Positions 35,902 through 62,302 of a stretch of 64,000 nt of DNA are shown in pieces. The first letter of the stretch is position 1. Each line of letters starts with the position of its first letter. The position numbers and the translations under genes are program-made. The notes beneath the pieces were generated by a model. It worked only from the letters and a program-made list of their open reading frames with translations, made no database searches and was not told the origin of the DNA. Origin of the DNA: Pseudomonas sp. SORT22 (GTDB lineage Bacteria > Pseudomonadota > Gammaproteobacteria > Pseudomonadales > Pseudomonadaceae); assembly GCF_018417635.1 (NCBI RefSeq), contig NZ_CP071007.1, forward strand, positions 4,154,501-4,218,500, written 5' to 3'.

Positions 35902-36084
35902 GGTTTTCCTTCAAAATCATTGAACTGTGCACAAGCGCCGAATTGTAGCGCACTTGCCCCCGCGCCGCGCAGTGGCCATGCAGCAGAAGTTGGCACGATT
36001 GGCGCAAAAGATTCGGATCACGCAGGGCCAACTATGCTCATAACAGAGCACCTGTGAAAGGGCGGAAGCGCCACGAGAAATTTC

Positions 36085-44026: not shown

Positions 44027-44036
44027 TTGTACACAG
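44027..44036. promoter_or_regulatory. Near copy of the TTGTATACAA operator, GntR side
   Basis: TTGTACACAG, two differences from TTGTATACAA, about 110 bases upstream of the GntR start. Consistent with autoregulation. Confidence 0.45.
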
Positions 44037-44123
44037 CCGCAGGGATTTCTGCAGGTGCCGATGGCCTTTATAGCTACGCCTGCAAATTATCTGGCCACAA
44101 CAACGAAAACATTATTTGCATTC

Positions 44124-44135
44124 TTTGTATACAAA
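44124..44135. promoter_or_regulatory. TTGTATACAA operator upstream of the AzgA-type permease
   Basis: TTTGTATACAAA, a perfect palindrome. The core is the FadR-subfamily GntR type (T-N-G-T...A-C-N-A). It lies in the shared promoter gap of the GntR regulator and the permease. Confidence 0.7.
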
Positions 44136-44159
44136 CGCATAATCCATCCGTGCAACTTC

Positions 44160-44175
44160 CTGACCCAGAAGTCAA
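44160..44175. promoter_or_regulatory. Second shared palindrome (xdhA-type box)
   Basis: CTGACCCAGAAGTCAA differs at three positions from the perfect CTGACCCAAAGGTCAG before xdhA, and both are preceded by TTC and followed by a short A-rich stretch. Likely a site for a regulator shared by xdhA and this permease. Confidence 0.5.
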
Positions 44176-44279
44176 CAAACGGTCCGGTGGCCTGCCATCC
44201 CATCCGCCTCACAGAGCCCCCCCAGTGCGTGCGCAGGACTGGTTCTGGAAAACAAGAAAAGACTTGAGGAGTACACGCT

Positions 44280-45629
44280 GTGGAAAGCCGCAAATCCGAC
44301 GCCCCTACGCTGGATCTTGCCCCACCGCTCGAAACGAGCTGGCTGGAGCGGATTTTCAAACTCAAGCTACATGGCACCACCGTCAAAACCGAGATGATCG
44401 CCGGGTTGACCACCTTCATCACCATGGCCTACATCATTTTCGTCAACCCCAACATCATGGCCGATGCCGGCATCGATCACGGTGCGGCATTTGTCGCCAC
44501 CTGCATCGCTGCCGCCCTCGGCTGCCTGTTGATGGGCCTGTACGCCAACTGGCCGGTCGGCCTGGCACCGGGCATGGGCCTGAACGCCTTCTTTACCTAC
44601 ACCGTGGTCGGGACCATGGGCTACACCTGGGAAGCCGCGCTGGGCGCGGTATTTGTCTCCGGGGTGCTGTTCATGCTGCTGACTTTGTCGCGGGTGCGCG
44701 AATGGCTGCTCAACAGCATTCCGGTCAGCCTGCGCCATGCCATGGGTGCCGGCGTCGGATTGTTCCTCGGACTGATCGGTCTTAAAACCGCAGGGATTGT
44801 CGTCGACAGCCCGGCGACCCTGATCAAGCTCGGCTCGCTGCACGAGCCCGGCCCGCTGCTGGCAGCCATCTGCTTTCTGATGATCGCGGTGCTCAGCTAC
44901 CACCGGGTGTTCGGCGCGATCCTGATCAGCATCATCAGCGTCACCCTCGCCGGCTGGGGCCTGGGCCTGGTCGAGTACGGCGGCTTGTTCTCGCTGCCGC
45001 CGAGCCTGGCACCGACCTGGATGGCCATGGATGTTGCCGGGGTGTTCAACGTCAGCATGATCGCGGTGGTGTTTGCCTTCCTCTTCGTGCACATGTTCGA
45101 CACCGCCGGCACCCTGATGGGCGTAGCCCAGCGGGCCGGCCTGGTGAATGCCGACGGGCGCATCGAGAACCTGTCGCGGGCGCTTAAAGCAGACAGCGCC
45201 TCGAGCGTGTTCGGCGCGGTGGTTGGTGTACCGCCGGTGACCAGCTATGTAGAGAGCGCGGCAGGTGTCGCCGCCGGCGGCCGTACCGGGCTGACTGCGG
45301 TGGTAGTCGGCCTGTTCTTTATCGCCGCCATGTTCTTCGCCCCGCTGGCCGGGATGATTCCTGCCTACGCCACCGCTGGCGCGCTGATCTATGTGGCGAT
45401 GCTGATGATGGGCAGCATGGCCCACATCAACTGGGATGAAGCCACTGACAGCATCCCGGCGATCGTCACCGCGATCATGATGCCGCTGACCTTCTCGGTC
45501 GCCGACGGCATCGCCCTGGGCTTTATCACCTATGTGGTGCTCAAGGCCGGGACCGGACGCTACAAGGAGATCTCGGCCAGCCTGTGGGTGCTGACGGCGA
45601 TCTTCATTGCCAAGTTCGTGTTCCTCTAA
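44280..45629 (+). CDS. AzgA-family (NCS2) purine permease
   Basis: 449 residues with about 12 membrane segments. Motifs of the AzgA branch are evident: GLTTFITMAYIIFVNP, GLAPGMGLNAFF and TSYVESAAGVAAGGRTGLTA. It imports adenine, guanine or hypoxanthine by proton symport. Start is GTG at 44280 behind GAGGAG. The substrate choice is inferred from family and from guaD/xdh nearby. Confidence 0.93.
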   Translation: MESRKSDAPTLDLAPPLETSWLERIFKLKLHGTTVKTEMIAGLTTFITMAYIIFVNPNIMADAGIDHGAAFVATCIAAALGCLLMGLYANWPVGLAPGMGLNAFFTYTVVGTMGYTWEAALGAVFVSGVLFMLLTLSRVREWLLNSIPVSLRHAMGAGVGLFLGLIGLKTAGIVVDSPATLIKLGSLHEPGPLLAAICFLMIAVLSYHRVFGAILISIISVTLAGWGLGLVEYGGLFSLPPSLAPTWMAMDVAGVFNVSMIAVVFAFLFVHMFDTAGTLMGVAQRAGLVNADGRIENLSRALKADSASSVFGAVVGVPPVTSYVESAAGVAAGGRTGLTAVVVGLFFIAAMFFAPLAGMIPAYATAGALIYVAMLMMGSMAHINWDEATDSIPAIVTAIMMPLTFSVADGIALGFITYVVLKAGTGRYKEISASLWVLTAIFIAKFVFL

Positions 45630-45651
45630 CACGGCACACTGCGACAACAGG

Positions 45652-45680
45652 GCCTCACCTTCGGGTGGGGCTTTTTGTTG
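45652..45680 (+). terminator. Terminator of the permease gene
   Basis: Stem GCCTCACC / GGTGGGGC around a TTCG tetraloop, followed by TTTTT, 22 bases after the stop. Confidence 0.85.
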
Positions 45681-45694
45681 TGTGTGAGGGACCT

Positions 45695-45728
45695 ATCGCG
45701 GGTCAAGCCCGCTCCTACACCCGCGATG
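45695..45728. repeat. Short REP-like pair
   Basis: ATCGCGGGTCAAGCCCGCTC followed closely by CCGCGAT; an abbreviated pair without a loop. Confidence 0.65.
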
Positions 45729-45749
45729 AGGCCGCAGAAAAATCACAGG

Positions 45750-45780
45750 CAAAAAAAAGCCCGCAGTGTGAGCGGGCAAG
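45750..45780 (-). terminator. Terminator of uraH
   Basis: On the minus strand GCCCGC-TCACACT-GCGGGC is followed by a run of eight T. It starts about 30 bases past the uraH stop. Confidence 0.85.
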
Positions 45781-45809
45781 GGACCTACGAAGATTCTTCT
45801 AGCGACCAA

Positions 45810-46163
45810 CTAGCTTCCACGATAGGTCGAGTAACTGTACGGCGAGATCAACAGCGGCACGTGGTAGTGATCCTGTTCGGCGCTGATGCCGAAACGCAGT
45901 ACCACCACGTCAAGAAAAGCAGGCTCGGGCAGTTGTACGCCGCGGGCACGGTAGTAGTCGCCGGCGCTGAACTGCAGCTGGTAAACGCCGCTGCGGTAAT
46001 CATCGCCTTGCAGCAGCGGTGCGTCGCAACGGCCATCGCTGTTGGTCAGGGTAGTGTTCACCAGTTCCAGCTGCTGGCCTTCGACCCGGTAGAGCTCGAC
46101 CTTGATCGAGCTGCCAGGGCAGCCATGAGCGGCATCCAGTACATGCGTGGTCAAACGTCCCAT
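45810..46163 (-). CDS. uraH: 5-hydroxyisourate hydrolase (transthyretin-like)
   Basis: 117 residues. Transthyretin fold with the N-terminal LTTHVLDAAHG motif (catalytic His) and the diagnostic C-terminal YRGS tetrapeptide. It hydrolyses 5-hydroxyisourate, the product of urate oxidase, to OHCU. Divergent from puuE; the gap holds two copies of the GntR-type palindrome. Confidence 0.97.
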   Translation of the reverse strand: MGRLTTHVLDAAHGCPGSSIKVELYRVEGQQLELVNTTLTNSDGRCDAPLLQGDDYRSGVYQLQFSAGDYYRARGVQLPEPAFLDVVVLRFGISAEQDHYHVPLLISPYSYSTYRGS

Positions 46164-46561
46164 TGCTTGCTCGCCTCTGTTCTATCTGTGGGCAAAAAAT
46201 ACCCGCACGCCAGCGTCAGGAAGCCCGACAACGTGCGGCTGTCGGATTATTAAGACATTTTTCTATGAAATTGTACACAATAATTCGGTATTCTTTCCTG
46301 GCACGCCGCTCATCCCCTGTAAATAGGCCATCAGTCGCAAAACCACGCCAATAGCCGACGCATCCGTCATTAGCTGACCGATCAGGCAGGTTTCTTGCAG
46401 GGCTCCTTATAGAGGTGGGAGTGGCCAAAAAGGCAAAGAAAAGCGAAAAAACAGGCTTACAAATCGCAAACAAAGTTGTATACAATCATTCCATCGTCGT
46501 GGCCGATACCCTACCCGGGTACCCACGCCCTCCGTATTCACGTACAAGAAGGAAGACTGCA
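46164..46561. promoter_or_regulatory. Divergent uraH/puuE control region with two operators
   Basis: 398 bases without a credible gene. TTGTACACAA at 46271-46280 is 108 bases upstream of uraH, and TTGTATACAA at 46476-46485 is 77 bases upstream of puuE. The region is AT-rich around both sites. AAGGAAG at 46552 region serves as the puuE ribosome binding site. Confidence 0.65.
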
Positions 46562-47488
46562 GTGAGCGCTGATTACCCTCGCGACCTGATCGGTTACGGC
46601 AACACCCCACCTCATCCGCGCTGGCCGGGGAATGCCCGCATTGCTTTGTCTTTCGTGCTCAACTACGAAGAAGGTGGCGAACGCAACATCCTTCACGGTG
46701 ACAAAGAGTCCGAAGCCTTCCTCTCGGAAATGGTCGCCGCCCAGCCGCTGCAGGGCGCGCGCAACATGAGCATGGAATCGCTGTACGAGTACGGCAGCCG
46801 TGCCGGCGTCTGGCGCCTGCTCAAGCTGTTCAAGGACACCGGCGTGCCGCTGACCATCTTCGCCGTGGCCATGGCCGCCCAGCGCCATCCGGACGTGATC
46901 CGCGCCATGGTCGAAGCCGGCCACGAGATCTGCAGCCACGGCTACCGCTGGATCGACTACCAGAACATGGACGAGGCCCAGGAACGCGAGCACATGCTCG
47001 AAGCCATCCGCATCCTCACCGAACTCACTGGTGAACGGCCGCTGGGCTGGTACACCGGCCGTACCGGGCCGAACACCCGGCGCCTGGTGATGGAGGAAGG
47101 CGGCTTCCTCTACGACAGCGACACCTACGACGACGACCTGCCTTACTGGGAACGCAACAACCCCACCGACAAGCCGCACCTGGTGATCCCCTACACCCTG
47201 GACACCAATGACATGCGCTTCACCCAGGTACAGGGTTTCAATTGCGGCGAGCAGTTCTTCCAGTACCTCAAGGACGCCTTCGATGTGCTCTACGAAGAAG
47301 GCGCCGAGGCGCCGAAAATGCTCTCGATCGGCCTGCACTGCCGCCTGATCGGTCGCCCGGCGCGCCTGGCTGCGCTCAAGCGCTTCGTCGAGTACGCCAA
47401 GAGCCATGACCAGGTCTGGTTCGCCCGGCGCGTGGACATCGCCCGTCACTGGCATGCCACCCACCCTTTCCAAGCCGAGAACGCCTAA
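46562..47488 (+). CDS. puuE: Allantoinase PuuE (polysaccharide-deacetylase family)
   Basis: 308 residues, NodB/polysaccharide deacetylase fold, closely matching P. fluorescens PuuE, a metal-independent allantoinase. Recognisable stretches: LSFVLNYEEGGE, EICSHGYRWIDY, GWYTGRTGPNTRR and YTLDTNDMRF. It opens allantoin to allantoate. GTG at 46562 (MSADYPRDLIGYG) follows AAGGAAG and gives family length; the 49-residue in-frame extension crosses the operator and is rejected. TAATG overlap with uraD. Confidence 0.95.
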   Translation: MSADYPRDLIGYGNTPPHPRWPGNARIALSFVLNYEEGGERNILHGDKESEAFLSEMVAAQPLQGARNMSMESLYEYGSRAGVWRLLKLFKDTGVPLTIFAVAMAAQRHPDVIRAMVEAGHEICSHGYRWIDYQNMDEAQEREHMLEAIRILTELTGERPLGWYTGRTGPNTRRLVMEEGGFLYDSDTYDDDLPYWERNNPTDKPHLVIPYTLDTNDMRFTQVQGFNCGEQFFQYLKDAFDVLYEEGAEAPKMLSIGLHCRLIGRPARLAALKRFVEYAKSHDQVWFARRVDIARHWHATHPFQAENA

Positions 47489-48003
47489 TGACCGCATTCA
47501 AGACCCTGAAGCCTTCGACCCTGGACCGCACAGCGTTTGTCGAAGCCTTCGCCGACATCTACGAACACTCGCCATGGGTTGCCGAAAAGGCCTACGACCT
47601 CGGCCAGTTGCACGAAGCCGACCAGATCGAAGCCCTGCACCAGCGCATGAGCGACATCCTCCTGAGCGCCGACCACGCCGCCCAGCTGGCGCTGATCAAT
47701 GCTCACCCGGACCTCGCCGGCAAGGCCGCGATCCAGGGTGAGCTGACCGAATCGAGCACCAATGAACAGGCCGGCGCCGGTATCCACCAGTGCACCGCCG
47801 AAGAGTTCGAGCGTTTCACCGAACTCAACGATGCCTACAAAGAAAAGTTCAAGTTCCCGTTCATCATGGCGGTCAAAGGCAGTAACCGGCACCAGATCCT
47901 CGCCGCCTTTGAAAAGCGCATCCACAACTCGGTCGAGGCCGAGTTCAAGGAAGCGCTGGCGCAGATCAACCTGATTGCCCTGTTCCGCCTGCTGCAGCTT
48001 TAA
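47488..48003 (+). CDS. uraD: OHCU decarboxylase
   Basis: 171 residues. Catalytic His73 in the conserved INAHPDLAGK motif and the FKFPFIMAVKG stretch are present. It decarboxylates 2-oxo-4-hydroxy-4-carboxy-5-ureidoimidazoline to S-allantoin. Its ATG overlaps the puuE stop. Confidence 0.96.
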   Translation: MTAFKTLKPSTLDRTAFVEAFADIYEHSPWVAEKAYDLGQLHEADQIEALHQRMSDILLSADHAAQLALINAHPDLAGKAAIQGELTESSTNEQAGAGIHQCTAEEFERFTELNDAYKEKFKFPFIMAVKGSNRHQILAAFEKRIHNSVEAEFKEALAQINLIALFRLLQL

Positions 48004-48107
48004 GGGCGTCGACCGCCGGGCTGGCCCGAGTGCGCGACGCGAGCGTACCCAGGGCCTGACCGGCGCCACAACGGCACCCTCCACAACACAGAATAAAGAG
48101 AATCCGC
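48004..48107 (+). other. Gap where allantoicase (alc) is found in P. aeruginosa
   Basis: 104 bases between uraD and allA. In P. aeruginosa alc sits here; no alc reading frame exists in this window. One frame (48006-48059) reads STAGLARVRDASVPRA and stop, faintly like the GGVSRLR end of allantoicases, but this is too short to call a remnant. AAAGAG at 48092-48097 can serve allA. Confidence 0.4.
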
Positions 48108-48611
48108 ATGCGCACTTTAGTGATTGAGCCCCTGAGCAAAGAAGCCTTCGCCCCTTTCGGTGACGTGATCGAAACCGACGGCAGCGACCACTTCATGATC
48201 AACAACGGCTCGACCATGCGCTTCCATCGTCTGGCCACGGTCGAAACCGCACAACCCGACGACAAGGCGATCATCAGCATCTTCCGCGCCGATGCGCAGG
48301 ACATGCCCCTGACCGTACGCATGCTGGAGCGCCATCCGCAGGGCAGCCAGGCTTTCATTCCGCTGCTCGGCAACCCCTTTCTGATCGTGGTCGCGCCCGT
48401 TGGCGATGCACCTGTATCAGGCCTGGTCCGTGCCTTCATCAGTAATGGAAGGCAGGGCATCAATTACCATCGCGGCGTCTGGCACCACCCGGTGCTGACG
48501 ATCGAAAAGCGGGATGACTTCCTGGTGGTTGATCGCAGTGGCACTGGCAACAACTGCGATGAGCATTTTTTCAATGAGGATGAGCAATTGATCCTCGCCC
48601 CCCACCAATAA
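48108..48611 (+). CDS. allA: Ureidoglycolate lyase
   Basis: 167 residues, AllA family: FAPFGDVIETDG near the start, MLERHPQGSQAFIPL and NYHRGVWHHPV with the conserved His residues. It cleaves ureidoglycolate to glyoxylate and urea, which links purine breakdown to the gcl pathway at 58.6 kb. Confidence 0.95.
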   Translation: MRTLVIEPLSKEAFAPFGDVIETDGSDHFMINNGSTMRFHRLATVETAQPDDKAIISIFRADAQDMPLTVRMLERHPQGSQAFIPLLGNPFLIVVAPVGDAPVSGLVRAFISNGRQGINYHRGVWHHPVLTIEKRDDFLVVDRSGTGNNCDEHFFNEDEQLILAPHQ

Positions 48612-48661
48612 GAGAAGACCTGAGCGCCCGGCTACAGGGTGCCAGGGTAGAGGTAAAGACT

Positions 48662-49987
48662 GTGGAAGCACATCTGTTGGAATGGCTGAACCTGAGCGTG
48701 CGTTGGGTTCACATGATCACTGGCGTGGCATGGATTGGCGCGTCGTTCTACTTTGTCTGGCTGGAAAACAACCTCAACCGGGCTAACCCGCGCGACGGTC
48801 TGTCCGGCGATCTCTGGGCGATTCACGGTGGCGGGATCTACCACCTGGAGAAGTACAAGTTGGCTCCGCCAAAAATGCCGGAGAACCTGCACTGGTTCAA
48901 ATGGGAAGCCTACTTCACCTGGATGTCGGGTATCGCCCTGCTGTGCCTGGTGTTCTACTGGAACCCGACCCTCTACCTGCTGGCCCCTGGCAGCACCCTG
49001 AGCGGTGGTGAAGGGATTGCCATCGGTGTCGGTTCGCTGATCGCCGGCTGGTTCATCTACGACTTCCTCTGTGACTCGCCACTGGGCAAGCGCCCTGGCC
49101 TGCTCGGCCTGGTCCTGTTCGTGCTGGTCATTGCCGCCTGCTACGGCTTCAGCCAGGTGTTCAGCGGCCGCGGCGCGTACCTGCACACCGGCGCGATCAT
49201 CGGCACCATCATGGTCGGCAACGTGTTCCGCATCATCATGCCGGCCCAGCGTCAGCTGGTGGCCGCCATCGAAGCCAACCAGACCCCCGACCCGCTGCTG
49301 CCGGCCAAGGGCCTGCTGCGTTCGCGACACAACAACTACTTCACCCTGCCGGTGCTGTTCATCATGATCAGCAACCACTTCCCGAGCACCTATGGCAGCC
49401 AGTACAACTGGTTGATCCTGGGCGGTATCGCGGTGGCTGCGGTGTTGGTGCGTCACTACTTCAACACCCGTCATGACAGCAACAAGTACGCCTGGACCCT
49501 GCCGGTCGGCGCCCTGGCGATGATCTGCCTGGCTTACGTTACCGGCCCTGCGCCGATGCCGACTGCGCCACAGCAGGCCGCCGCCAAGGTTGAGTACCAG
49601 CCGCTGCCGGAAACCGCCCTGGGTGGCAAGACCGCTGCCGAGAAAGCCGCCGAACAAGCTGCCGCCCCTGCCCAGCCAGCCGCCCCTGCTGCTGCCCCGG
49701 CCGAGGCCACCGCCAAGCTCGACGATGCCGGTTTCGACAAGATCCACAGCGTCATCCAGGAACGCTGCGCGGTGTGCCATTCGGCCAAGCCGACCAGCCC
49801 GCTGTTCAGCGCCGCCCCTGCCGGGGTGATGCTCGATACCCCGCAGCAGATCCAGCAACAGGCCGCGCGCATCCAGGCGCAAGCGGTAGCCACGCAGATC
49901 ATGCCCCTGGGCAACATCACGCAGATGACCCAGCAGGAACGTGAACTGATTGGCGCCTGGGTCGCCAAGGGAGCACCGACCAACTAA
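48662..49987 (+). CDS. puuD: Membrane-bound urate oxidase with cytochrome c domain
   Basis: 441 residues. About eight membrane segments (1-305) form the PuuD urate oxidase core; an Ala/Pro-rich linker (about 312-355) leads to a C-terminal cytochrome c domain with C369-A-V-C372-H. PuuD proteins oxidise urate to 5-hydroxyisourate and pass electrons to the respiratory chain rather than directly to oxygen. Start is GTG at 48662. It completes the urate-to-allantoin steps with uraH and uraD. Confidence 0.95.
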   Translation: MEAHLLEWLNLSVRWVHMITGVAWIGASFYFVWLENNLNRANPRDGLSGDLWAIHGGGIYHLEKYKLAPPKMPENLHWFKWEAYFTWMSGIALLCLVFYWNPTLYLLAPGSTLSGGEGIAIGVGSLIAGWFIYDFLCDSPLGKRPGLLGLVLFVLVIAACYGFSQVFSGRGAYLHTGAIIGTIMVGNVFRIIMPAQRQLVAAIEANQTPDPLLPAKGLLRSRHNNYFTLPVLFIMISNHFPSTYGSQYNWLILGGIAVAAVLVRHYFNTRHDSNKYAWTLPVGALAMICLAYVTGPAPMPTAPQQAAAKVEYQPLPETALGGKTAAEKAAEQAAAPAQPAAPAAAPAEATAKLDDAGFDKIHSVIQERCAVCHSAKPTSPLFSAAPAGVMLDTPQQIQQQAARIQAQAVATQIMPLGNITQMTQQERELIGAWVAKGAPTN

Positions 49988-50095
49988 GGCAGCCGCAAGC
50001 TGCCAGCTGTAAGCGGCAAGCAAAAAAAAGCTGCAAGCCAAGCGCGACCTCCTGCTTCTTCTTGAAGCTTGGCGCTTGAAGCTTGCAGCTCCAAG
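49988..50095. repeat. Intergenic inverted repeat of the GCTTGAAGCTTGCAGCT type
   Basis: AGCTGCAAGCCAAGCGC and GCGCTTGAAGCTTGCAGCT face each other around about 30 bases. A related element is at 62131-62222. It follows the puuD stop directly. Confidence 0.65.
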
Positions 50096-50120
50096 AATAA
50101 AAACAAAACCGAGGTGTTGC

Positions 50121-51476
50121 ATGTCCGAGTCACGCAAGGCGTACATCCCTGTTGCGCCCCCACGACAGCCACTGCCCCTGTTCCAACTGTTCCTGGTGGG
50201 TCTGCAGCATGTGTTGCTGATGTACGGAGGCGCGATTGCCGTGCCGCTGATCATCGGTCAAGCCGCCGGACTTTCTCGTGAAGAAGTCGCTTTCCTGATC
50301 AATGCCGACCTGCTGGTCGCTGGTGTCGCCACCATCGTCCAGTCGTTCGGCATTGGTGCTGTCGGCATCCGCATGCCGGTGATGATGGGCGCAAGCTTTG
50401 CCGCGGTCGGCAGCATGGTGGCCATGGCCGGCATGCCCGGCGTCGGCCTGCAGGGGATTTTCGGCGCGACCATCGCCGCCGGCTTCTTCGGCATGATCAT
50501 CGCGCCGTTCATGTCCAAGGTGGTGCGCTTCTTCCCGCCCCTGGTGACCGGCACAGTCATCACCTCGATCGGCCTGTCGCTGTTCCCGGTTGCCGTCAAC
50601 TGGGCCGGCGGCGGCGCCGATGCCGCACCCTTCGGCTCCCCCGTGTACCTGATCGTCGCCGGCCTGGTGCTGGCCACCATCCTGCTGATCAACCGCTTCA
50701 TGCGTGGCTTCTGGGTCAATGTCTCGGTGCTGATCGGCATGGGCCTGGGCTACATCATTGCCGGCTCCATCGGCATGGTCGACCTCACCGGCCTGAGCGA
50801 AGCGCCCTGGGTCCAGGTCGTCACCCCGCTGCACTTCGGCATGCCGACCTTCAGCCTGGCGCCGATCCTGTCGATGTGCCTGGTGGTGGTGATCATCTTT
50901 GTCGAGTCCACCGGCATGTTCCTCGCCCTGGGCAAGGTCACCGACCGTGAAGTCACCCCGGGCATGCTGCGCCGCGGCCTGATGTGCGATGCCGGCGCAT
51001 CGTTCGTGGCCGGCTTTTTCAACACTTTCACCCACTCCTCGTTCGCCCAGAACATCGGCCTGGTGCAGATGACCGGCGTGCGTTGCCGCTACGTTACGGT
51101 AGTTGCCGGAGGTTTTCTGATCCTGCTCAGTCTGCTGCCAAAAGCGGCGTTCCTGATTGCCTCGATTCCGCCAGCAGTACTCGGCGGCGCCTCGATTGCC
51201 ATGTTCGGCATGGTCGCCGCTACCGGCATCAAGATCCTCCAGGAAGCCGACATCGCCGACCGTCGTAACCAGTTGCTGGTGGCCGTCAGCGTCGGCATGG
51301 GCCTGATCCCGGTGGTGCGCCCCGAATTCTTTGCACAGATGCCGCAGTGGATGGAACCGATCACCCATAGCGGCATTGCCATGGCCACCGTCAGCGCGTT
51401 GATCCTCAACCTGCTGTTCAACATCCTCGGTGGCGCCGAGCGCGCTGCCCACAACGATACCGCCCACCAGCACTGA
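50121..51476 (+). CDS. NCS2 nucleobase permease (urate/xanthine type)
   Basis: 451 residues, about 14 membrane segments, NAT/NCS2 family. The family signature QNxGxxxxT is seen as AQNIGLVQMTG, and ESTG precedes it. Place between puuD and tsx suggests urate or xanthine import, similar to UacT; the exact substrate is inferred. ATG 50121 follows GAGGTG; the upstream extension lies in a repeat and is rejected. Confidence 0.92.
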   Translation: MSESRKAYIPVAPPRQPLPLFQLFLVGLQHVLLMYGGAIAVPLIIGQAAGLSREEVAFLINADLLVAGVATIVQSFGIGAVGIRMPVMMGASFAAVGSMVAMAGMPGVGLQGIFGATIAAGFFGMIIAPFMSKVVRFFPPLVTGTVITSIGLSLFPVAVNWAGGGADAAPFGSPVYLIVAGLVLATILLINRFMRGFWVNVSVLIGMGLGYIIAGSIGMVDLTGLSEAPWVQVVTPLHFGMPTFSLAPILSMCLVVVIIFVESTGMFLALGKVTDREVTPGMLRRGLMCDAGASFVAGFFNTFTHSSFAQNIGLVQMTGVRCRYVTVVAGGFLILLSLLPKAAFLIASIPPAVLGGASIAMFGMVAATGIKILQEADIADRRNQLLVAVSVGMGLIPVVRPEFFAQMPQWMEPITHSGIAMATVSALILNLLFNILGGAERAAHNDTAHQH

Positions 51477-51609
51477 GCCTTTGGGCGGCGCTTGCCGCCC
51501 GGCGTCACCCGAGCAACATGCAAGGCCGTCGACCCGTGGGAGCGGGTCGGCCGGGGCGCTTCGCGCCAAAAAACCGAAAACCAACAATAACAAAGCCGGG
51601 AATCACAAC

Positions 51610-52395
51610 ATGAAAGGCATCACCACTTCCCTCCTGCTGGGTAGCAGTCTGCTGGCCACCTTGCCAGCCGCCGCAGGGGACTTGCTGCTCTGGCACACCA
51701 ACAGCCTCACCTACCTCTACGGCAAGGACTTCCAGGTCAACCCGGCGATCCAGCAGACGCTGACCTTCGAACACGCCAACAAGTGGAAGTACGGCGACAC
51801 TTTCCTGTTCATCGACAAGATCTTCTACAACGGCGGTACCGACCGCAACAAAGGCAGCAACACCTACTACGGTGAGTTCAGCCCGCGGCTGTCGCTAGGC
51901 AAGATCTTCGATCGCAAATTCGAGTTCGGTCCGATCAAGGACGTACTGATCGCCATGACCTACGAGTCGGGCGAAGGCGACAACGAGGCCTACCTGATCG
52001 GCCCCGGCTTTGACCTGGCGATTCCCGGCTTCAACTACTTCACCCTCAACATCATGCAGCGCAACACCGAAGGCAGCCGCCCAGGTGATCGTGTCTGGCA
52101 GATTACCCCAACCTTTTCCTACACCATCCCCGTGGGCAAGTCCGACGTGCTGATCGATGGCTACATGGACTGGGTGGTGGACAACGATCAAACCCGGCGC
52201 GGCACCTACCACGCCAACCTGCAGTTCAACCCGCAGGTCAAATACGACCTGGGCAAGGCCCTGAACCTGGGCGCCAAGCAGTTGTACGTAGGTATCGAAT
52301 ACAGCTACTGGAAAGACAAATACGGTATCGAGAACAGTGGGAAGCTCGACACCAACCAGAGCGTTACCAGCGCCCTGGTTAAGGTTCACTTCTAA
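51610..52395 (+). CDS. Tsx-like nucleoside-specific outer membrane channel (copy 1)
   Basis: 261 residues. Signal peptide (about 1-21) then a 12-strand-type barrel beginning GDLLLWHTNSLTYLYG and ending in Phe (VKVHF), as outer membrane proteins do. It probably admits nucleosides. A paralogue of the same length follows 361 bases downstream with about three quarters of residues shared by eye. Confidence 0.92.
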   Translation: MKGITTSLLLGSSLLATLPAAAGDLLLWHTNSLTYLYGKDFQVNPAIQQTLTFEHANKWKYGDTFLFIDKIFYNGGTDRNKGSNTYYGEFSPRLSLGKIFDRKFEFGPIKDVLIAMTYESGEGDNEAYLIGPGFDLAIPGFNYFTLNIMQRNTEGSRPGDRVWQITPTFSYTIPVGKSDVLIDGYMDWVVDNDQTRRGTYHANLQFNPQVKYDLGKALNLGAKQLYVGIEYSYWKDKYGIENSGKLDTNQSVTSALVKVHF

Positions 52396-52756
52396 AAGCT
52401 GACCAAACGCACAGTTTTTGCCACACCTGCTCCAGGACGGAGCACTTGAGGACCGGCGCGCAAGCCAGTAATCTGCGCGCCCCCTCGCTCAGGGCAGGAC
52501 GGATCCTGTCTGCGTTTGCTGACCGCTCAGTCAATGAATTCGGGCGGTTGGCAAGCGTCACGCCATCCAGCAATACCCTTTTCATCTGTTCAGTCTGACG
52601 TCGAGCAGGATTGTTGAGCCAGCCCCAAAAAGTTGGCCCAGCTCTTGCCAAACAGCTGTGGCCAATCGAAAAAAACTGACTCAGAAGACAAGTAATTACC
52701 CAAAAGGTGCCACACCAGAGCACCGACACAGAATCAATCAAGGGAGCAACTACGCG
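52396..52756 (+). promoter_or_regulatory. Gap between the two tsx-like genes with sigma-54-like promoter
   Basis: 361 bases without a gene. A hairpin GGCGCGCA/TGCGCGCC lies at 52455-52481, without a T run. TTGGCCCAGCTCTTGC at 52633-52648 has the sigma-54 spacing (GG, ten bases, GC) and fits most of the TGGCACG-N4-TTGC consensus. It is about 110 bases before the second tsx-like start. No enhancer site was recognised, so the promoter is tentative. Confidence 0.4.
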
Positions 52757-53545
52757 ATGCGTATTACCAACAGCCTGATCCTCGCCAGCGGCCTGCTGGC
52801 GGCCAGCACCGGCGCCAGCGCCGGTGACCTGCTGCAATGGCAGAACAACAGCCTGACCTACCTGTGGGGCAAGAACTTCGCCGTCAACCCGTCGATCCAG
52901 CAGACCGTGACCTTCGAGCACGCCGATGCCTGGAAGTACGGCGACAACTTCATCTTCGTCGACAAGATCTTCTACAACGGCGACAAGGACTTCAACAACG
53001 GCCCCAACACCTACTACGGCGAGATCAGCCCGCGCCTGTCCTTCGGCAAGATCTTCGACCAGAAGCTGGCCTTCGGCCCGGTCAAGGACGTGCTGCTGGC
53101 CATGACCTACGAGTTTGGCGAAGGTGACACCGAGTCCTACCTGATCGGCCCGGGTTTCGACCTGGACATCCCGGGCTTTGATTACTTCCAGCTGAACTTC
53201 TACCAGCGCCACACCGAAGGCAGCCGCGCCGGTGACAACGTCTGGCAGATCACCCCGGTATGGTCCTACACCATTCCCGTGGGCAAGTCCGACATCCTCA
53301 TCGATGGTTTCATGGACTGGGTCGTCGACAACGATGCCACCAGCCGCCGTGGTACCTACCACGCCAACCTGCACTTCAACCCGCAGGTCAAATACGACCT
53401 GGGCAAGGCGCTGAACTGGGGCGAGAAGCAGTTGTATGTCGGTTTCGAATACGACTACTGGAAGAACAAATACGGCATCAAGGACAGCGATGCCTTTGAT
53501 ACCGATCAGAACACGGCCAGCTTCCTGGTCAAAGCGCACTTCTGA
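52757..53545 (+). CDS. Tsx-like nucleoside-specific outer membrane channel (copy 2)
   Basis: 262 residues with signal peptide (about 1-22, ASTGASA) and a Tsx-type barrel (GDLLQWQNNSLTYLWG start, VKAHF end). Paralogue of the preceding gene; loops differ more than the strands. ATG 52757 is the start that yields the signal peptide. It has its own leader and terminator, so it can be expressed apart from copy 1. Confidence 0.92.
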   Translation: MRITNSLILASGLLAASTGASAGDLLQWQNNSLTYLWGKNFAVNPSIQQTVTFEHADAWKYGDNFIFVDKIFYNGDKDFNNGPNTYYGEISPRLSFGKIFDQKLAFGPVKDVLLAMTYEFGEGDTESYLIGPGFDLDIPGFDYFQLNFYQRHTEGSRAGDNVWQITPVWSYTIPVGKSDILIDGFMDWVVDNDATSRRGTYHANLHFNPQVKYDLGKALNWGEKQLYVGFEYDYWKNKYGIKDSDAFDTDQNTASFLVKAHF

Positions 53546-53559
53546 TCTGCACGAATACA

Positions 53560-53592
53560 AAGTTGCGCCCTGCATGGGCGCAACTTTTATAA
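53560..53592 (+). terminator. Terminator of the second tsx-like gene
   Basis: Perfect 11-bp stem AAGTTGCGCCC / GGGCGCAACTT with a 5-base loop and a following TTTT, starting 15 bases after the stop. Confidence 0.9.
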
Positions 53593-53649
53593 GCAAGTCA
53601 AACTTCGGAAATCTCTTACATCAACTAAGGTGTTTTCCTACAAACGAAT

Positions 53650-53967
53650 TCAACCGATACTCGCGCGCCGCAGATTCAGACGCAGATACAAACCAGCAGC
53701 CGCAAGCCCCGGTGCAATTACCCCAAAAACCAACAGACTGAATAACACCGCCCGGTGATCGATCAGGCGCAGTACATCTGCCAACAGGATTCCCAGGCAG
53801 ACCAGCACGCCCAGCCCAGCCACGCCCAGGCAACTGCCCGGCACAGTAGCAAAGCGACGCCTGCGCGCGCAAAGCAAAACCATGACGCACAGGCTGGTCC
53901 AGGCCAATGCAGTGGCCATGTACAAGCCCAGGTGAAAGACATCGTAGGTCAATGTTCTGAAGGGCAT
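53650..53967 (-). CDS. Small membrane protein of unknown function
   Basis: 105 residues with three likely membrane helices (about 12-34, 44-64, 74-95) separated by Arg-rich turns. AAGGAG lies 7 bases before ATG 53967, which decides the frame; another ATG four bases upstream opens a different, non-hydrophobic frame. No family recognised. Confidence 0.65.
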   Translation of the reverse strand: MPFRTLTYDVFHLGLYMATALAWTSLCVMVLLCARRRRFATVPGSCLGVAGLGVLVCLGILLADVLRLIDHRAVLFSLLVFGVIAPGLAAAGLYLRLNLRRASIG

Positions 53968-54153
53968 TCATGGGCTCCTTATTTAGTTATCAGGGGCGAT
54001 TATCATTAGCGCCTCGTGCGCATCCTTGCGGCATGAAAGAACCATCACTATAAACTACAGACAAACTTCTTCACTGCATTTATTTGACAATTTTTTCTCA
54101 TTTCAAGCGTTAGTTTGCCGCCCCACTTCCCCTGCAATAACAAGGCAAACGCC

Positions 54154-56100
54154 ATGCACGCTACACGCTCAGCGCCGGTGCGCTATCTACTGCTATTAAC
54201 GTCGTTGTGGTTGGTTATTTTCTTACTGACAAGAAGCGCCCTGTACTTCACTCACCTGAGTGAAGCCGGGGGGCATTTTTTCTCGATCTTTACCACCGGC
54301 CTGGTCTATGACCTGGGCTTTCTGATTTATGCCGCCCTGCCCCTGGCCGTCTACCTGCTGCTGTGCCCGGCGCCGCTATGGCGGTTGCGGGCGCATCGCG
54401 GGTTGCTGCGAGTGGTGATGTTCGCCAGCGTATTCATCATGTTGTTCGTCGCCGTTGCCGAATGGCTGTTCTGGGACGAGTTCGGCGTGCGCTTCAACTT
54501 TATCGCCGTGGACTACCTGGTGTACTCCGATGAGGTACTGAACAACATCCTCGAGTCCTACCCCATCGGCCTGATTCTCAGCGTACTGGCACTGGTCGCG
54601 TTGGTAGTGACCCTGGCAATTGCCAAACCGCTGCGCCAGGCCCTGGATGCACCTTTGCCCAGTTGGCGTAAACGCCTTGCCAACCTTGCTGGCCTGGCAC
54701 TGCTGGTTGGCTGTTGCGCGCTGTTGATCAACCAGGACATGCCTCGCGGCCAGGGTGGCAATGCTTACGCCCGCGAACTGGCAAGCAACGGGCCGTACCA
54801 GTTCTTTGCCGCGTTTCGCAACAACGAACTGGACTATTCACAGTTCTACGGCAGCCTCAGCGAAAGCGAATCCACCCAGTTGATCCGCGCCGAACTGCAA
54901 GAACCCAATGCACGCTTCGTCGATCAGGAACCCATGGGCATTCGCCGGGAAATTACTGCCTCGGGCAGCCCGCGCACGCCGAATATCGTCCTGGTTACCA
55001 TCGAGAGCCTGAGCGCCAAGTACCTGGGCAGCAACGGCGATACTCGCAACCTTACCCCCAACCTCGACGCACTGCGCAAGCAGAGCCTGTACTTCAACAA
55101 CTTCTATGCCACCGGCACGCGCACCGACCGCGGTCTGGAGGCGATCACCCTGTCGATGCCGCCAACGCCCGGGCGTTCGATCGTCAAGCGCATCGGCCGT
55201 GAAAGCGGCTTCGCCAGCCTTGGCCAGCAACTGGCCGAAGTCGGCTATGACAGCGTGTTCGTCTACGGCGGGCGCGGCTATTTCGACAACATGAACGCGT
55301 TTTTCAGCGGCAACGGCTACCGGGTCGTCGACCAGAGCAGCGTTGCCGAAGCCGACATCAGCTTCAAGAATGCCTGGGGCATGTCCGATGAAGACCTGTA
55401 CACCCAAGCGCTAAAACTGGCGGACGCCGACCACGACAACCAGGTGCCGTTCTTCCTGCAACTGATGACCACCTCCAACCATCGTCCCTACACCTACCCC
55501 GATGGCCGTATCGATATTCCATCAGGCAATGGCCGCGACGGCGCGGTGAAGTACACCGACCATGCCATCGGGCGCTTTTTGCAACAGGCCCGCAGCAAAC
55601 CCTGGTTCGACAACACCCTGTTCATCTTTGTCGCCGATCACACGGCGGGCAGCGCCGGCAAGGAGGACCTGCCGGTCAGCAACTATCAGATCCCGCTGTT
55701 CATCTACGCCCCGAAGCTGATCGAAGCGCGCGAGGAGTCAAAACTGGCCAGCCAGATCGACCTCGCACCGACCCTGCTGGGCCTGTTGAACATGAGCTAC
55801 ACCTCGACCTTCTTCGGTCGCGACCTGATGCTCGATGACCGCCTGCCACCGCGGGTGCTGATCGGCAACTACCAGCACCTGGGCCTGTTCAACGGCCAGG
55901 ACCTGGCCATCCTCAGCCCGCGTGACGGCTTGCGCCGCCACAACCAGGCGCTGGGTGAAAGCCAGGAAGTGAACAGCAGCACCAGTGACCCGTTGATCCA
56001 GCGCGCAATCGCCTACTACCAGGTCGCCAGCTACGGCTTCACCCACCACCTGCTCGACTGGCTGCCCGCAGCCAACGAGCGCACAGCACTGAAGAACTGA
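54154..56100 (+). CDS. LTA synthase-like membrane sulfatase family protein
   Basis: 648 residues. Four or five N-terminal membrane helices (to about 195) are followed by an alkaline-phosphatase/sulfatase-fold periplasmic domain (about 277-575). Metal and nucleophile sites resemble LtaS: E284 in VTIESLS, the nucleophile probably T324 in GTRTDRGLEA, and D495-H496 in VADHTAG. Such proteins in Gram-negatives transfer phosphoglycerol or phosphoethanolamine groups to envelope glycans or lipids; the exact acceptor is unknown. ATG 54154 is preferred over an in-frame TTG at 54115. Confidence 0.88.
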   Translation: MHATRSAPVRYLLLLTSLWLVIFLLTRSALYFTHLSEAGGHFFSIFTTGLVYDLGFLIYAALPLAVYLLLCPAPLWRLRAHRGLLRVVMFASVFIMLFVAVAEWLFWDEFGVRFNFIAVDYLVYSDEVLNNILESYPIGLILSVLALVALVVTLAIAKPLRQALDAPLPSWRKRLANLAGLALLVGCCALLINQDMPRGQGGNAYARELASNGPYQFFAAFRNNELDYSQFYGSLSESESTQLIRAELQEPNARFVDQEPMGIRREITASGSPRTPNIVLVTIESLSAKYLGSNGDTRNLTPNLDALRKQSLYFNNFYATGTRTDRGLEAITLSMPPTPGRSIVKRIGRESGFASLGQQLAEVGYDSVFVYGGRGYFDNMNAFFSGNGYRVVDQSSVAEADISFKNAWGMSDEDLYTQALKLADADHDNQVPFFLQLMTTSNHRPYTYPDGRIDIPSGNGRDGAVKYTDHAIGRFLQQARSKPWFDNTLFIFVADHTAGSAGKEDLPVSNYQIPLFIYAPKLIEAREESKLASQIDLAPTLLGLLNMSYTSTFFGRDLMLDDRLPPRVLIGNYQHLGLFNGQDLAILSPRDGLRRHNQALGESQEVNSSTSDPLIQRAIAYYQVASYGFTHHLLDWLPAANERTALKN

Positions 56101-56115
56101 TCGAACCTCGCGGCA

Positions 56116-57024
56116 TCAGGCTCTGGCAGCACGCCAGAGCTTGCCGATGACCGCCACCACCGCCAGTACCGCGGCGCCGGCAAGGATACCGACGCCGGCG
56201 TTGAGCAAGGCGCCGGTCAAGGCGCCGCCGCGGCCTGCGCTGAAGGCTTCAATGGCATGGTGCAGCGGCGCCACGCCGTGCACCAGAATCCCGCCACCGA
56301 CCAGAAACATCGCCGCCGTGCCGATCACCGACAGGCTTTTCATCATGTACGGCGCCGCGCGCAGGATGCCGTTGCCGATCGCCTTGGCGGCGCTGGAAGC
56401 CTTCTGGGTCAGCCACAGGCCCAGGTCATCGAGCTTGACGATGCCGGCCACCAGGCCATAAACACCGATGGTCATGACAATGGCGATGCCCGAGAGCACG
56501 ATGATCTGCTGGGTCAGCGGCGCATGGGCGACCGCGCCCAGGGTGATGGCGATGATCTCGGCCGAAAGGATGAAGTCGGTGCGCACCGCGCCCTTGATCT
56601 TGCCTTGCTCGAAGGCCACCAGGTCGACTGCTGGGTCCGCCACCGCCTCGGTCAGCGCCGCATGCTCGGCCTGGTCTTGCTCCTTGCTGTGGAGGAACTT
56701 GTGCGCGAGCTTTTCGAAGCCTTCAAAACACAGGAACGCACCGCCGACCATCAGCAGCGGCGTCACCGCCCAGGGGATGAAGGCGCTGATCAACAGCGCC
56801 GCCGGCACCAGGATCAGTTTGTTGAGGAACGAGCCCTTGGCCACCGCCCAGACCACCGGGATTTCCCGCTCGGCGCGCACGCCGGTAACCTGCTGGGCAT
56901 TGAGCGCCAGGTCGTCGCCCAGCACCCCTGCGGTCTTTTTTGCCGCGACCTTGGTCATTACCGAGACATCGTCGAGTACCGTAGCGATATCGTTGATCAA
57001 TACCAGAAGACTGCTTCCTGCCAT
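56116..57024 (-). CDS. DUF808 (YedI-like) inner membrane protein
   Basis: 302 residues with about seven membrane segments. The [38 protein letters not shown]-terminus is typical of the DUF808 family; function is unknown. ATG 57024 gives that conserved start. Convergent with the sulfatase-like gene, 15 bases apart. Confidence 0.88.
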
Positions 57025-57171
57025 GTTTGCCTGATTCCAGCGGGTTGAGAGGGCCACAGTCTAGCTCAAAGTCGCCACCTTGAGCCGCTTGCGAACCCGG
57101 TGCTACCATGCGCAACCGCCCTCCCAGGCCCGGGTGCCGCCAGCGGCCAGACACGAGGAACAGCGTCAACC

Positions 57172-57780
57172 ATGAGCAGCATTCGCGAGCGCAACAAAGA
57201 ACTGATCCTGCGCGCGGCCAGTGAAGAGTTTGCCGACAAGGGCTTCGCTGCCACCAAGACCAGCGACATCGCGGCCAAGGCCGGCCTGCCCAAGCCCAAC
57301 GTCTATTACTACTTCAAGTCCAAGGAAAACCTCTACCGCGAGGTCCTGGAAAGCATCATCGAGCCGATCATGCAGGCGTCGACACCGTTCAATGCCGACG
57401 GCGATCCCAAAGAAGTGCTGAGCGCCTACATCCGCTCCAAGGTGCGCATCTCGCGCGATCTGCCGTTCGCCTCCAAGGTGTTCGCCAGCGAGATCATGCA
57501 CGGCGCGCCGCACCTGAGCCCGAGCCAGGTCGAGCAGCTCAACGACCAGGCCCGGCACAACATCGAGTGCATCCAGGCGTGGATCGACCGCGGCCAGATC
57601 GCCCCGCTCGACCCGCACCACCTGATGTTCAGCATCTGGGCCGCGACCCAGACCTACGCCGACTTCGACTGGCAGATCTCGGTGGTCACCGGCAAGGCCA
57701 AGCTCGATGACAGCGATTATGAAGCGGCGGCGCAGACCATCATTCGTTTGGTGCTCAAGGGCTGTGAGCCGGACGCTTGA
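57172..57780 (+). CDS. TetR family regulator (RutR-like)
   Basis: 202 residues. N-terminal helix-turn-helix (TSDIAAKAGLPKPNVYYYFKSKENLY, about 31-56); the C-terminal domain with DFDWQISVVTGKAKL resembles the RutR/YcdC branch, which senses pyrimidines in E. coli. It precedes the gcl cluster, as a TetR gene does in P. aeruginosa, so it may help regulate it; no operator was identified. Confidence 0.88.
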   Translation: MSSIRERNKELILRAASEEFADKGFAATKTSDIAAKAGLPKPNVYYYFKSKENLYREVLESIIEPIMQASTPFNADGDPKEVLSAYIRSKVRISRDLPFASKVFASEIMHGAPHLSPSQVEQLNDQARHNIECIQAWIDRGQIAPLDPHHLMFSIWAATQTYADFDWQISVVTGKAKLDDSDYEAAAQTIIRLVLKGCEPDA

Positions 57781-57794
57781 TCGGTAGTGCATCC

Positions 57795-57886
57795 ATCGCG
57801 GGTCAAGTCGAGTCGTCGCACCGCCGCTCCCACAGGGTCAGGTGATTGTGGGAGCGGCGGTGCGACGACTCGACTTGACCCGCGAT
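57795..57886. repeat. Long REP pair with perfect 39-bp arms
   Basis: Arms 57795-57833 and 57848-57886 are exact reverse complements around a 14-base loop. Each arm is a REP core (ATCGCGGGTCAAG... and ...GCTCCCAC) enlarged by CGAGTCGTCGCACCGC. Only one arm of the 40025 element carries the same enlargement. It lies 14 bases after the TetR stop. Confidence 0.92.
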
Positions 57887-57891
57887 ACATT

Positions 57892-58332
57892 TTAAGCCGC
57901 TACACCGGCATCCGCCGTCAACCCCGCCTCTTCGATCGCACTGATCGCGCACTGCTCGTCGATATCCGACGTATCGCCACTGATACCGATCGCCCCCAGC
58001 ACCACGCCCTGCTGATTACGAATCAGCACCCCACCCGGCGCCGGCACCACCGGGCTTTGACCCAGGCCATTGAGCGCGGCGAAGAACGCCGGGCGCTGTT
58101 GCGCGTCCAGCGCCAGCAGGCGCGAGCCCTTGCCCAGGGCAATTGCGCCCCAGGCCTTGCCCATCGCCACTTGCGGGCGCAGCAGGCTGGCGCCGTCTTC
58201 ACGCTGCAGGGCCAGCAGGTGACCGCCGCTGTCCAGCACCGCCACGGTCAGCGGCGCGGAGGAGATCTTGCGCCCGGCCACCAGCGCAGCGTTCACCAGG
58301 CTGACAGCGACTTTCAGGGTCAAAGCGTTCAT
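57892..58332 (-). CDS. GlcG/HbpS-family protein
   Basis: 146 residues, PF03928-type fold: TLKVAVSLVNAALVAGRK start, VAVLDSGGHLLALQREDGA and the GVLGAIGISGDTSDIDEQCA end. The family binds small ligands or haem and often sits with glycolate/glyoxylate genes. Divergent from gcl; TTGTATACAA at 58413 is 81 bases upstream of its ATG. Confidence 0.9.
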   Translation of the reverse strand: MNALTLKVAVSLVNAALVAGRKISSAPLTVAVLDSGGHLLALQREDGASLLRPQVAMGKAWGAIALGKGSRLLALDAQQRPAFFAALNGLGQSPVVPAPGGVLIRNQQGVVLGAIGISGDTSDIDEQCAISAIEEAGLTADAGVAA

Positions 58333-58412
58333 GGAAAGGTCCTCTTGTTGTTAGAAGCCCGAGGGCAGGTGTAAAAATCAATAGAACAAATAGAACACAA
58401 TGGCGAATATTT

Positions 58413-58422
58413 TTGTATACAA
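58413..58422. promoter_or_regulatory. TTGTATACAA operator, glcG-like side
   Basis: Exact copy of the palindrome seen at 44125 and 46476, in the divergent gap before the GlcG-like gene. Confidence 0.7.
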
Positions 58423-58552
58423 TAATTTCGACGCGATGAACCAATTCTGACGAAACGCCATTTTTAAAGGCTTCCCGACGAAAGCGCCGATCGCCGATGA
58501 AAATGGATTGACCAGAGTCGCCTGGCGTGAATACACTCTGGTGAAAAGCCAT

Positions 58553-58562
58553 TTGTATACAA
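58553..58562. promoter_or_regulatory. TTGTATACAA operator, gcl side
   Basis: Exact copy ending 26 bases before the gcl ATG, probably over or just past the transcription start, a repressor-like place. Confidence 0.7.
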
Positions 58563-58588: not shown

Positions 58589-60364
<1,776 letters not shown>

Positions 60365-60421: not shown

Positions 60422-61204
60422 ATGCCACGTTTCGCCGCCAACCTGTCCATGCTGTTCACCGAGCAGGACTTCCTCGCCCGTTTCAAGGCTGCTGCCGACG
60501 CCGGCTTCAGCGGTGTCGAGTACCTGTTCCCGTACGACTTCAGCTCGGCTGAAATCAAGCAGCAGCTCGATGCCCACGGCCTGACCCAGGTGCTGTTCAA
60601 CCTGCCGGCCGGCGACTGGGCCAAGGGTGATCGCGGCATCGCCTGCGACCCGGCCCGTGTCGAGGAATTCCGCGCCGGTGTCGATCTGGCCATCGCCTAC
60701 GCCCAGGTGCTGGGCAACACCCAGGTCAACTGCCTGGCCGGCATCCGTCCACAAGGCCCGGACTGCGCCACGGTGCGCAAGACCTTCGTCGACAACCTCA
60801 AGTTTGCCGCCGACAAGCTGCAGGCCGCCGGGATCAAGCTGGTCATGGAAATGATCAACACCCGCGACATCCCGGGCTTCTACCTGAACACCACCAAACA
60901 GGCGCTGGAGATCCAGGCCGAGGTGGCGAGCAGCAACCTGTACCTGCAATACGACATCTACCACATGCAGATCATGGAGGGCGATCTTGCCCGTACCGTG
61001 CAGAGCAACCTGGCCAAGATCAACCACATCCAGCTGGCCGACAACCCCGGCCGCAACGAGCCGGGTACTGGCGAGATCAACTATCGCTTCCTCTTCGAAC
61101 ACCTGGACCGCATCGGCTACCAGGGCTGGGTGGGCTGTGAATACAAGCCGCTGACCACTACCGAAGCGGGCCTTGGCTGGCTGAAGACCCATAACGCGAT
61201 CTGA
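60422..61204 (+). CDS. hyi: Hydroxypyruvate isomerase
   Basis: 260-residue TIM-barrel isomerase (AP endonuclease 2 superfamily) that interconverts hydroxypyruvate and tartronate semialdehyde. Active-site stretches KLVMEMINTRDIPGF, LQYDIYHMQIMEGD and VGCEYKP (acid residues) are conserved. Preceded by AAGGAG. Confidence 0.96.
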   Translation: MPRFAANLSMLFTEQDFLARFKAAADAGFSGVEYLFPYDFSSAEIKQQLDAHGLTQVLFNLPAGDWAKGDRGIACDPARVEEFRAGVDLAIAYAQVLGNTQVNCLAGIRPQGPDCATVRKTFVDNLKFAADKLQAAGIKLVMEMINTRDIPGFYLNTTKQALEIQAEVASSNLYLQYDIYHMQIMEGDLARTVQSNLAKINHIQLADNPGRNEPGTGEINYRFLFEHLDRIGYQGWVGCEYKPLTTTEAGLGWLKTHNAI

Positions 61205-62270: not shown

Positions 62271-62302
62271 GATTCTGAAAAACAATAAGATTGGAGCCTG
62301 CC

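Follow-up and report, generated by a model that had tools for sequence, protein, structure and literature searches.

In Escherichia coli, one repressor, AllR, couples allantoin use to the glyoxylate genes; it differs in protein family and effectors from the Pseudomonas repressors UgmR and GclR. In Pseudomonas aeruginosa, UgmR (PA1520) is a GntR-family repressor of gcl and the allantoin genes and binds near them (PMC12694930, citing Xu et al. 2022). In Pseudomonas putida, GclR (PP_4283) is a GntR repressor of gcl connected to xanthine metabolism, and its loss permits ethylene glycol use (PMC13357446, PMC9206389, PMC6978631). In strain KT2440, the GclR gene lies about 12 kb from gcl and the protein is described as a glyoxylate carboligase regulator; neither an operator sequence nor a link to chemotaxis was found in the available text on GclR (PMC13357446, PMC9206389). 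Here, we analyzed a 64 kb window (positions 4154501-4218500 of the single 5.80 Mb contig of Pseudomonas sp. SORT22), in which the palindrome TTGTATACAA recurs around genes of purine and glyoxylate metabolism. We propose, with a probability of about 0.9, that TTGTATACAA, with the consensus aTTGTRYACAAt, serves as operator for the GntR/FCD protein encoded at 43152-43919, a putative UgmR/GclR ortholog that would repress a urate-released regulon comprising the purine and glyoxylate genes, the chemoreceptor gene mcpH and an unlinked xanthine permease gene.

The core of this regulon, a repressor of gcl and the allantoin genes, is already established and is seen here in another species. An earlier reading of the window (the original prediction) had assigned to the GntR protein the control of the path leading from purines through glyoxylate to glycerate; that assignment is supported, yet not new in its core. 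The links of the box to mcpH and to an unlinked xanthine permease gene seem new, together with the proposed operator letters and with a box at lpd in close relatives, and neither of the first two links turned up in the available literature. As a published motif, TTGTATACAA had a sole literature match, a paper titled on neural synapses, and PA1520 is absent from the main text of an atlas of SELEX (systematic evolution of ligands by exponential enrichment). The proposal offers operator letters for a regulator whose loss is used in metabolic engineering of P. putida for ethylene glycol use.

A palindromic box lies in three divergent promoter gaps

The window and the whole genome were scanned for the box. 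Four exact copies of TTGTATACAA and the near copies TTGTACACAA and TTGTACACAG were recovered at all six positions of the original prediction (Table 1). All six sites are intergenic and fall in three divergent gaps, between ugmR and the permease gene (gene starts at 43919 and 44280), uraH and puuE (46163 and 46562), and the GlcG/HbpS-like gene and gcl (58332 and 58589). The genome contains 8 exact copies, 4 of them in the window, and none of the reversed word used as control; with independent bases at the window composition, 0.01 copies are expected per 64 kb and 0.88 per genome. The chance of finding 4 of the 8 within 14.6 kb is 3e-9, for a stretch picked after the sites were seen. The clustering is therefore beyond chance, as had been claimed, and a chance cluster as the origin of the sites was ruled out by the genome count and the reversed-word control. 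For the core TGTATACA, the genome count is 13, against 1 for its control. When one mismatch was allowed, 23 places were found in the genome versus 10 for the control, so that near copies are much weaker evidence and the exact or near-exact sites are the informative ones. A two-mismatch scan of the window alone was unremarkable (10 found, 5.85 expected, with 8 of 100 shuffles reaching 10).

The box is conserved across genera and its number follows the regulator

The protein encoded at 43152-43919 has an N-terminal GntR winged helix-turn-helix (HTH) and a C-terminal FCD domain, in agreement with the FadR-subfamily type predicted for it, and its gene sits inside the purine xdh-guaD-uraH-puuE cluster. 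It fits UgmR and GclR as a putative ortholog, judging from sequence and gene order: it is 92-98% identical to the genes in named P. putida strains and 77-78% to those in genus g9, which is probably the P. aeruginosa clade. Among the matches listed, the closest record is Pseudomonas donghuensis HYS, with a 100% identical regulator (the window's own record was possibly excluded). A gene for a RutR-like TetR protein is found close to gcl, as in the P. aeruginosa UgmR regulon; in contrast, no chemoreceptor is among the UgmR targets named in the available text (PMC12694930). In vivo binding targets reported for P. putida in 2018 for CbrB, a regulator of carbon scavenging, include PP4283, an NCS1 transporter and a xanthine/uracil permease (PMC6296734), the same kinds of genes as the box-bearing genes found here.

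To follow the box in other genomes, we used loci fetched by the regulator protein, namely the best 80 of at least 540 confirmed stretches in named records; 78 of these 80 loci come from records titled Pseudomonas. The flanks of these loci do not extend to gcl, and counts for the permease gene, uraH and puuE refer to the loci reaching far enough. All 80 loci have TTGTRYACAA in the 300 bp preceding ugmR, and 66 of 66 have it at up to this distance from the permease gene; the exact TTGTATACAA accounts for 19 in each case. In the uraH/puuE gap, all 55 loci carry TTGTRYACAA before uraH and exact TTGTATACAA before puuE. The form TTGTGTACAA stands at -94 to -104 of ugmR in 14 loci (L082-L095) and at -142 to -144 in others. 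Base counts over these sites are partly circular, since TTGT..ACAA was the search pattern; the informative positions are the middle (A/G, C/T) and the flanks, where A precedes and T follows the box in 67% each. An exact box was also found before gcl in all five gcl loci read, 24-27 bp away counted from the core. The glcG/gcl gap holds two exact boxes in G071 and G054, and one exact box and one near copy in G063, G094 and G011.

The number of boxes per genome was then set against the presence of the regulator gene. The genus sample comprised 149 genomes. In the 136 that encode an ortholog, the median number of exact boxes is 8 (mean 7.46, control 0.39), whereas the 13 without one have counts of 0, 0, 0, 0, 0, 0, 0, 1, 1, 1, 1, 1 and 6 (mean 0.85, control 0.54; Mann-Whitney p 9e-9, nominal since the genomes are related). 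Across 119 genomes of the family, the mean is 5.08 (control 0.27) in the 52 with an ortholog of at least 71% identity, 2.29 (control 0.79) in the 14 with a 37-40% homolog alone, and 0.92 (control 0.89) in the 53 without the regulator. This association, which is one among related genomes, points strongly to the 43152-43919 protein as the probable owner of the box. Together with the published orthologs, the two genome sets support the predicted control of purine and glyoxylate genes by this protein.

Two other proteins of the same genome were considered as owners. The second FCD-GntR protein (35242-35901), beside xdhA, shares both domains with UgmR, and CTGTGCACAA in its gap differs from TTGTRYACAA by a single letter; a UgmR paralog at C1:2070035 is 48% identical to UgmR. 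A full TTGTRYACAA box precedes neither gene, and on this ground ownership by either was rejected, in contrast to ugmR with a box in every locus. Box number moreover follows the ortholog of the 43152-43919 protein, the one for which it was tabulated, and we consider it very unlikely that the box belongs to either of the other two. The HTH region of the putative UgmR ortholog is nearly identical across three box-bearing genomes of three genera. In another genus, the gene for a 40% homolog (L112) is immediately preceded by two exact boxes and its product retains the RPNRGA wing, while the wing of the paralog in our genome (48-49% identity) is altered. No TGTnnACA word was present in the 3.5 kb fetched around the paralog.

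Boxes precede mcpH, an unlinked xanthine permease gene and lpd

The original prediction would have lost its footing if the word had recurred at many unrelated promoters. The genome scan gave four more exact copies outside the window: those before a xanthine permease gene and a purine chemoreceptor gene fit the route, the one before lpd is less obvious, and one is coding. The last (C1:1481796) was dropped as a regulatory site and taken as a coding coincidence, because it lies inside a long coding frame (L003) and because a relative (L375) has an exact copy with very similar flanks.

At C1:5164402, an exact copy starts 79 bp before an unlinked pbuX-type xanthine permease gene. Of 38 hits for this gene, 30 loci were read, which belong to four genera; all 30 have the form [A/T]TGTATACAA upstream, starting between -67 and -83.

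A further copy (C1:582498) lies 47 bp before a chemoreceptor gene at C1:582555, whose ligand domain matches McpH (PP_0320, PDB 8bmv; E 6e-132) and whose product keeps all five purine-motif residues (Y121, R129, W140, F167 and D169). P. putida McpH is reported to mediate chemotaxis to purines (PMC11245519), and purines are reported to raise the mcpH transcript in this species (PMC6363813); no regulator turned up in the available literature on mcpH. The box offers the UgmR ortholog as a candidate regulator behind this purine response. McpH-like genes are present in 78 of the 149 genus genomes, and 70 of their promoters were read: exact TTGTATACAA occurs in 40, TGTATACA in 65 and TGTRYACA in 68, against shuffle means of 0, 0.2 and 1.3. 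Among the 30 genus loci of highest similarity, 13 have a weaker form of the mcpH box, GTGTATACAC. In the family, nTGTRYACAn lies within about 450 bp of 22 of 45 McpH-like genes and TTGTnnACAA of 11, and none of the 11 genomes of genus g9 has a box before the McpH-like gene. The family box accompanies mcpH in 22 of 41 genomes with a close ortholog of the regulator and in 0 of 4 without one (Fisher p 0.11, a small sample). In genus g15 (G088, G015, G031, G055 and G096), the McpH-like gene and ugmR are on the same contig, about 10 to 22 kb apart.

These promoters also bear on whether the conserved word could be a core-promoter element, or a chance cluster, and no operator. Its TATACA resembles a -10 hexamer, and relative to the start codon, most mcpH boxes begin at around -45 or -60. 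A core-promoter element would not account for the full palindrome, for distances that vary from -36 at gcl over near -60 at mcpH and near -78 at the permease gene to -215 at ugmR, for counts that fall to background without the regulator, or for the scarcity of the word in the shuffled mcpH promoters. We regard this explanation as improbable in the extreme, and the word as a probable operator.

The third copy (C1:188199) is 60 bp before lpd. Of 47 hits, 30 loci were read: the 11 closest in sequence all have an exact lpd box, and the other 19 have none. In these loci (L305-L334), the box of the 11 most similar stands at about -70, and most of the other 19 have a palindrome-like word, ATTACG..CGTAAT.

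Lineage-specific boxes in other genomes

Further box neighborhoods were read in a selection of other genomes, short of a full census, and one example each of azurin, moaC, NCS1, VOC, ABM, malate synthase, enolase, glutamate dehydrogenase, lpd and TetR was checked with family models. Azurin is preceded by a box in 8 genomes (L126, L136, L348, L350, L373, L378, L381 and L387), the core being 88-90 bp before the start in seven and 117 bp in one; in our genome, TTGTATACAG lies upstream of azurin (L367, C1:5376282). The available text of PMC4562309 does not name the electron acceptor of the PuuD cytochrome c domain. The molybdenum cofactor synthesis gene moaC follows an exact box in 4 genomes of two genera (L338, L342, L352 and L190). 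An NCS1 permease gene has a box in 6 genomes, malate synthase G in 2, with a divergent acetyltransferase gene in the same gap, and enolase in 2. A divergent pair encoding VOC (glyoxalase superfamily) and ABM proteins has a central exact box in 9 genomes of four genera (L337, L341, L344, L374, L383, L189, L197, L198 and L201). A glycine-zipper protein, named by reading, has a box in 3 genomes and TTGTACACAA in ours. NADP-glutamate dehydrogenase has exact boxes in two genus g9 genomes (L336 and L340), and GTGTATACAT, holding the TGTATACA core, stands upstream of the glutamate dehydrogenase gene in ours (L365, C1:5152895). The RutR-like TetR gene near gcl is preceded by an exact box in two lineages (L140 and L167); its P. 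aeruginosa counterpart, PA1504, has been proposed as a candidate for allantoin control (PMC12694930). Other boxes lie inside frames or beside unclassified genes (e.g., L349, L371, L385, L377, L193 and L204).

This target set fits the chemistry of the route, with molybdenum cofactor, electron transfer, glyoxylate, 2-phosphoglycerate, pyruvate and ammonia all represented, a fit seen post hoc. If azurin and moaC are true targets, the first suggests what might carry electrons for the membrane urate oxidase, and the second how xanthine dehydrogenase might be supplied with cofactor. A wider proposal, to which we give even odds as a whole, is that UgmR/GclR acts as the master switch of a purine lifestyle through one urate-responsive operator, with a shared core and lineage-specific additions. 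Its scope would comprise mcpH, the NCS2 xanthine permease, the NCS1 allantoin-type permease, moaC, azurin, gcl, glcB, enolase, lpd and gdhA. In it, mcpH would serve to find purines and the two permeases to import them, moaC would provide the cofactor for xanthine dehydrogenase, azurin would perhaps take electrons from the cytochrome-c urate oxidase, gcl, glcB, enolase and lpd would drain carbon, and gdhA would drain ammonia.

Several observations weigh against the assignment of all boxes to one urate-released UgmR regulon. Some box-bearing genes, namely lpd, azurin, the glycine-zipper gene and the VOC/ABM pair, lie outside purine breakdown, and a further regulator with the same box is therefore possible. 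The gap between xdhA and the divergent second GntR gene (region 35242-35934) is without a good box, its one-letter variant standing alone near the second GntR start. Six of the 136 ortholog-bearing genus genomes have one exact box, the ortholog-bearing family genome G007 has none, and G193, scored as lacking the regulator, has six (an assembly of about 650 contigs with 93% completeness). Orthology with PA1520 and PP_4283 is putative, being based on genes of named P. putida strains, gene order and the literature. In P. aeruginosa, gcl is induced by allantoin, which is reported not to relieve UgmR, and a second input must therefore act there (PMC12694930). In Pseudomonas umsongensis GO16, gcl lies beside another regulator and growth on ethylene glycol was unchanged when the homolog was deleted (PMC13357446/PMC9206389).

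The first of these points could be met by a mixed regulon, in which UgmR owns the purine and glyoxylate boxes and another regulator of the same preference owns those at lpd, azurin, the VOC/ABM pair and the glycine-zipper gene. FCD-GntR sites resemble one another, and we know of no established role for these genes in purine breakdown. On the other side, in 12 of the 13 genus genomes without a UgmR ortholog the genome-wide count of exact boxes is 0 or 1, and such low numbers are hard to reconcile with a separate regulator (boxes were counted irrespective of whether the target genes are present). We judge such a division unlikely, at roughly one chance in four, and favor a single owner, the putative UgmR ortholog.

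Proposed model of regulation

Our model for this species, a derepression circuit of the classic type that we regard as most likely, draws its binding, effector and expression steps from the published orthologs. Without inducer, a UgmR dimer would occupy the boxes in the ugmR/permease, uraH/puuE and glcG/gcl gaps and repress these genes, its own included (autorepression). Urate would release the repressor. The original prediction had named allantoin, urate and glyoxylate as candidate effectors; urate is indeed reported to relieve UgmR repression, and allantoin is reported not to (PMC12694930). Release would open the breakdown of urate to glyoxylate jointly with the assimilation of glyoxylate to glycerate. 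The same boxes would bring in mcpH and the unlinked xanthine permease, and cells would thereby step up the sensing, uptake and breakdown of purines together. We infer from the boxes that UgmR binds each of them and controls mcpH, the permease gene and lpd. A repressor described at the level of a gene cluster thereby becomes a testable genome-wide regulon.

Other features of the locus

The window encodes most of the purine-to-glyoxylate route, as judged by family-model searches (Table 1). It also contains xdhA, xdhB, xdhC, a MIP channel gene, a pbuX-family xanthine permease gene and at least one gene for a Tsx-like channel. The name hyi is presumed from position.

Table 1. Candidate boxes and genes of the purine-to-glyoxylate locus, in window coordinates.
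Feature	Coordinates	Strand	Position or basis
Second GntR-FCD protein	35242-35901	-	same two domains as UgmR
Amidohydrolase read as guanine deaminase	40989-42293		
ugmR/gclR (putative), GntR-family FCD (FadR-type) regulator, 255 aa	43152..43919	-	PF00392 1.9e-17, PF07729 2e-23
Degenerate UgmR box TTGTACACAG (candidate)	44027..44036	.	107 bp upstream of ugmR
UgmR box TTGTATACAA (candidate)	44125..44134	.	ugmR/permease gap; starts -215 from ugmR
Purine permease, Xan_ur_permease family, azgA-like	44280..45629	+	PF00860
uraH, hydroxyisourate hydrolase	45810..46163	-	PF00576
UgmR box TTGTACACAA (candidate)	46271..46280	.	107 bp upstream of uraH
UgmR box TTGTATACAA (candidate)	46476..46485	.	76 bp upstream of puuE
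puuE, allantoinase	46562..47488	+	TIGR03212 above cut-off
uraD, OHCU (2-oxo-4-hydroxy-4-carboxy-5-ureidoimidazoline) decarboxylase	47488..48003	+	PF09349
allA, ureidoglycolate lyase	48108..48611	+	PF04115
puuD, membrane urate oxidase, C-terminal haem motif CAVCH	48662..49987	+	PF06181
RutR-like TetR protein	57172-57780		
GlcG/HbpS-like protein	57892..58332	-	PF03928
UgmR box TTGTATACAA (candidate)	58413..58422	.	80 bp upstream of GlcG/HbpS-like gene
UgmR box TTGTATACAA (candidate)	58553..58562	.	26 bp upstream of gcl, starting -36
gcl, glyoxylate carboligase	58589..60364	+	TIGR01504 above cut-off
hyi-like gene, xylose-isomerase-like TIM (triosephosphate isomerase) barrel	60422..61204	+	PF01261
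glxR, tartronate semialdehyde reductase	61237..62130	+	TIGR01505 above cut-off
Glycerate kinase	62291..63571	+	glycerate 2-kinase models, below their cut-offs

Two further box-like sites were noted, one at C1:2260601 in the genome and the other, ATTGTGTACAAT, at 763-772 of the window, roughly 150 bp upstream of a frame that may encode a cbb3 oxidase subunit.

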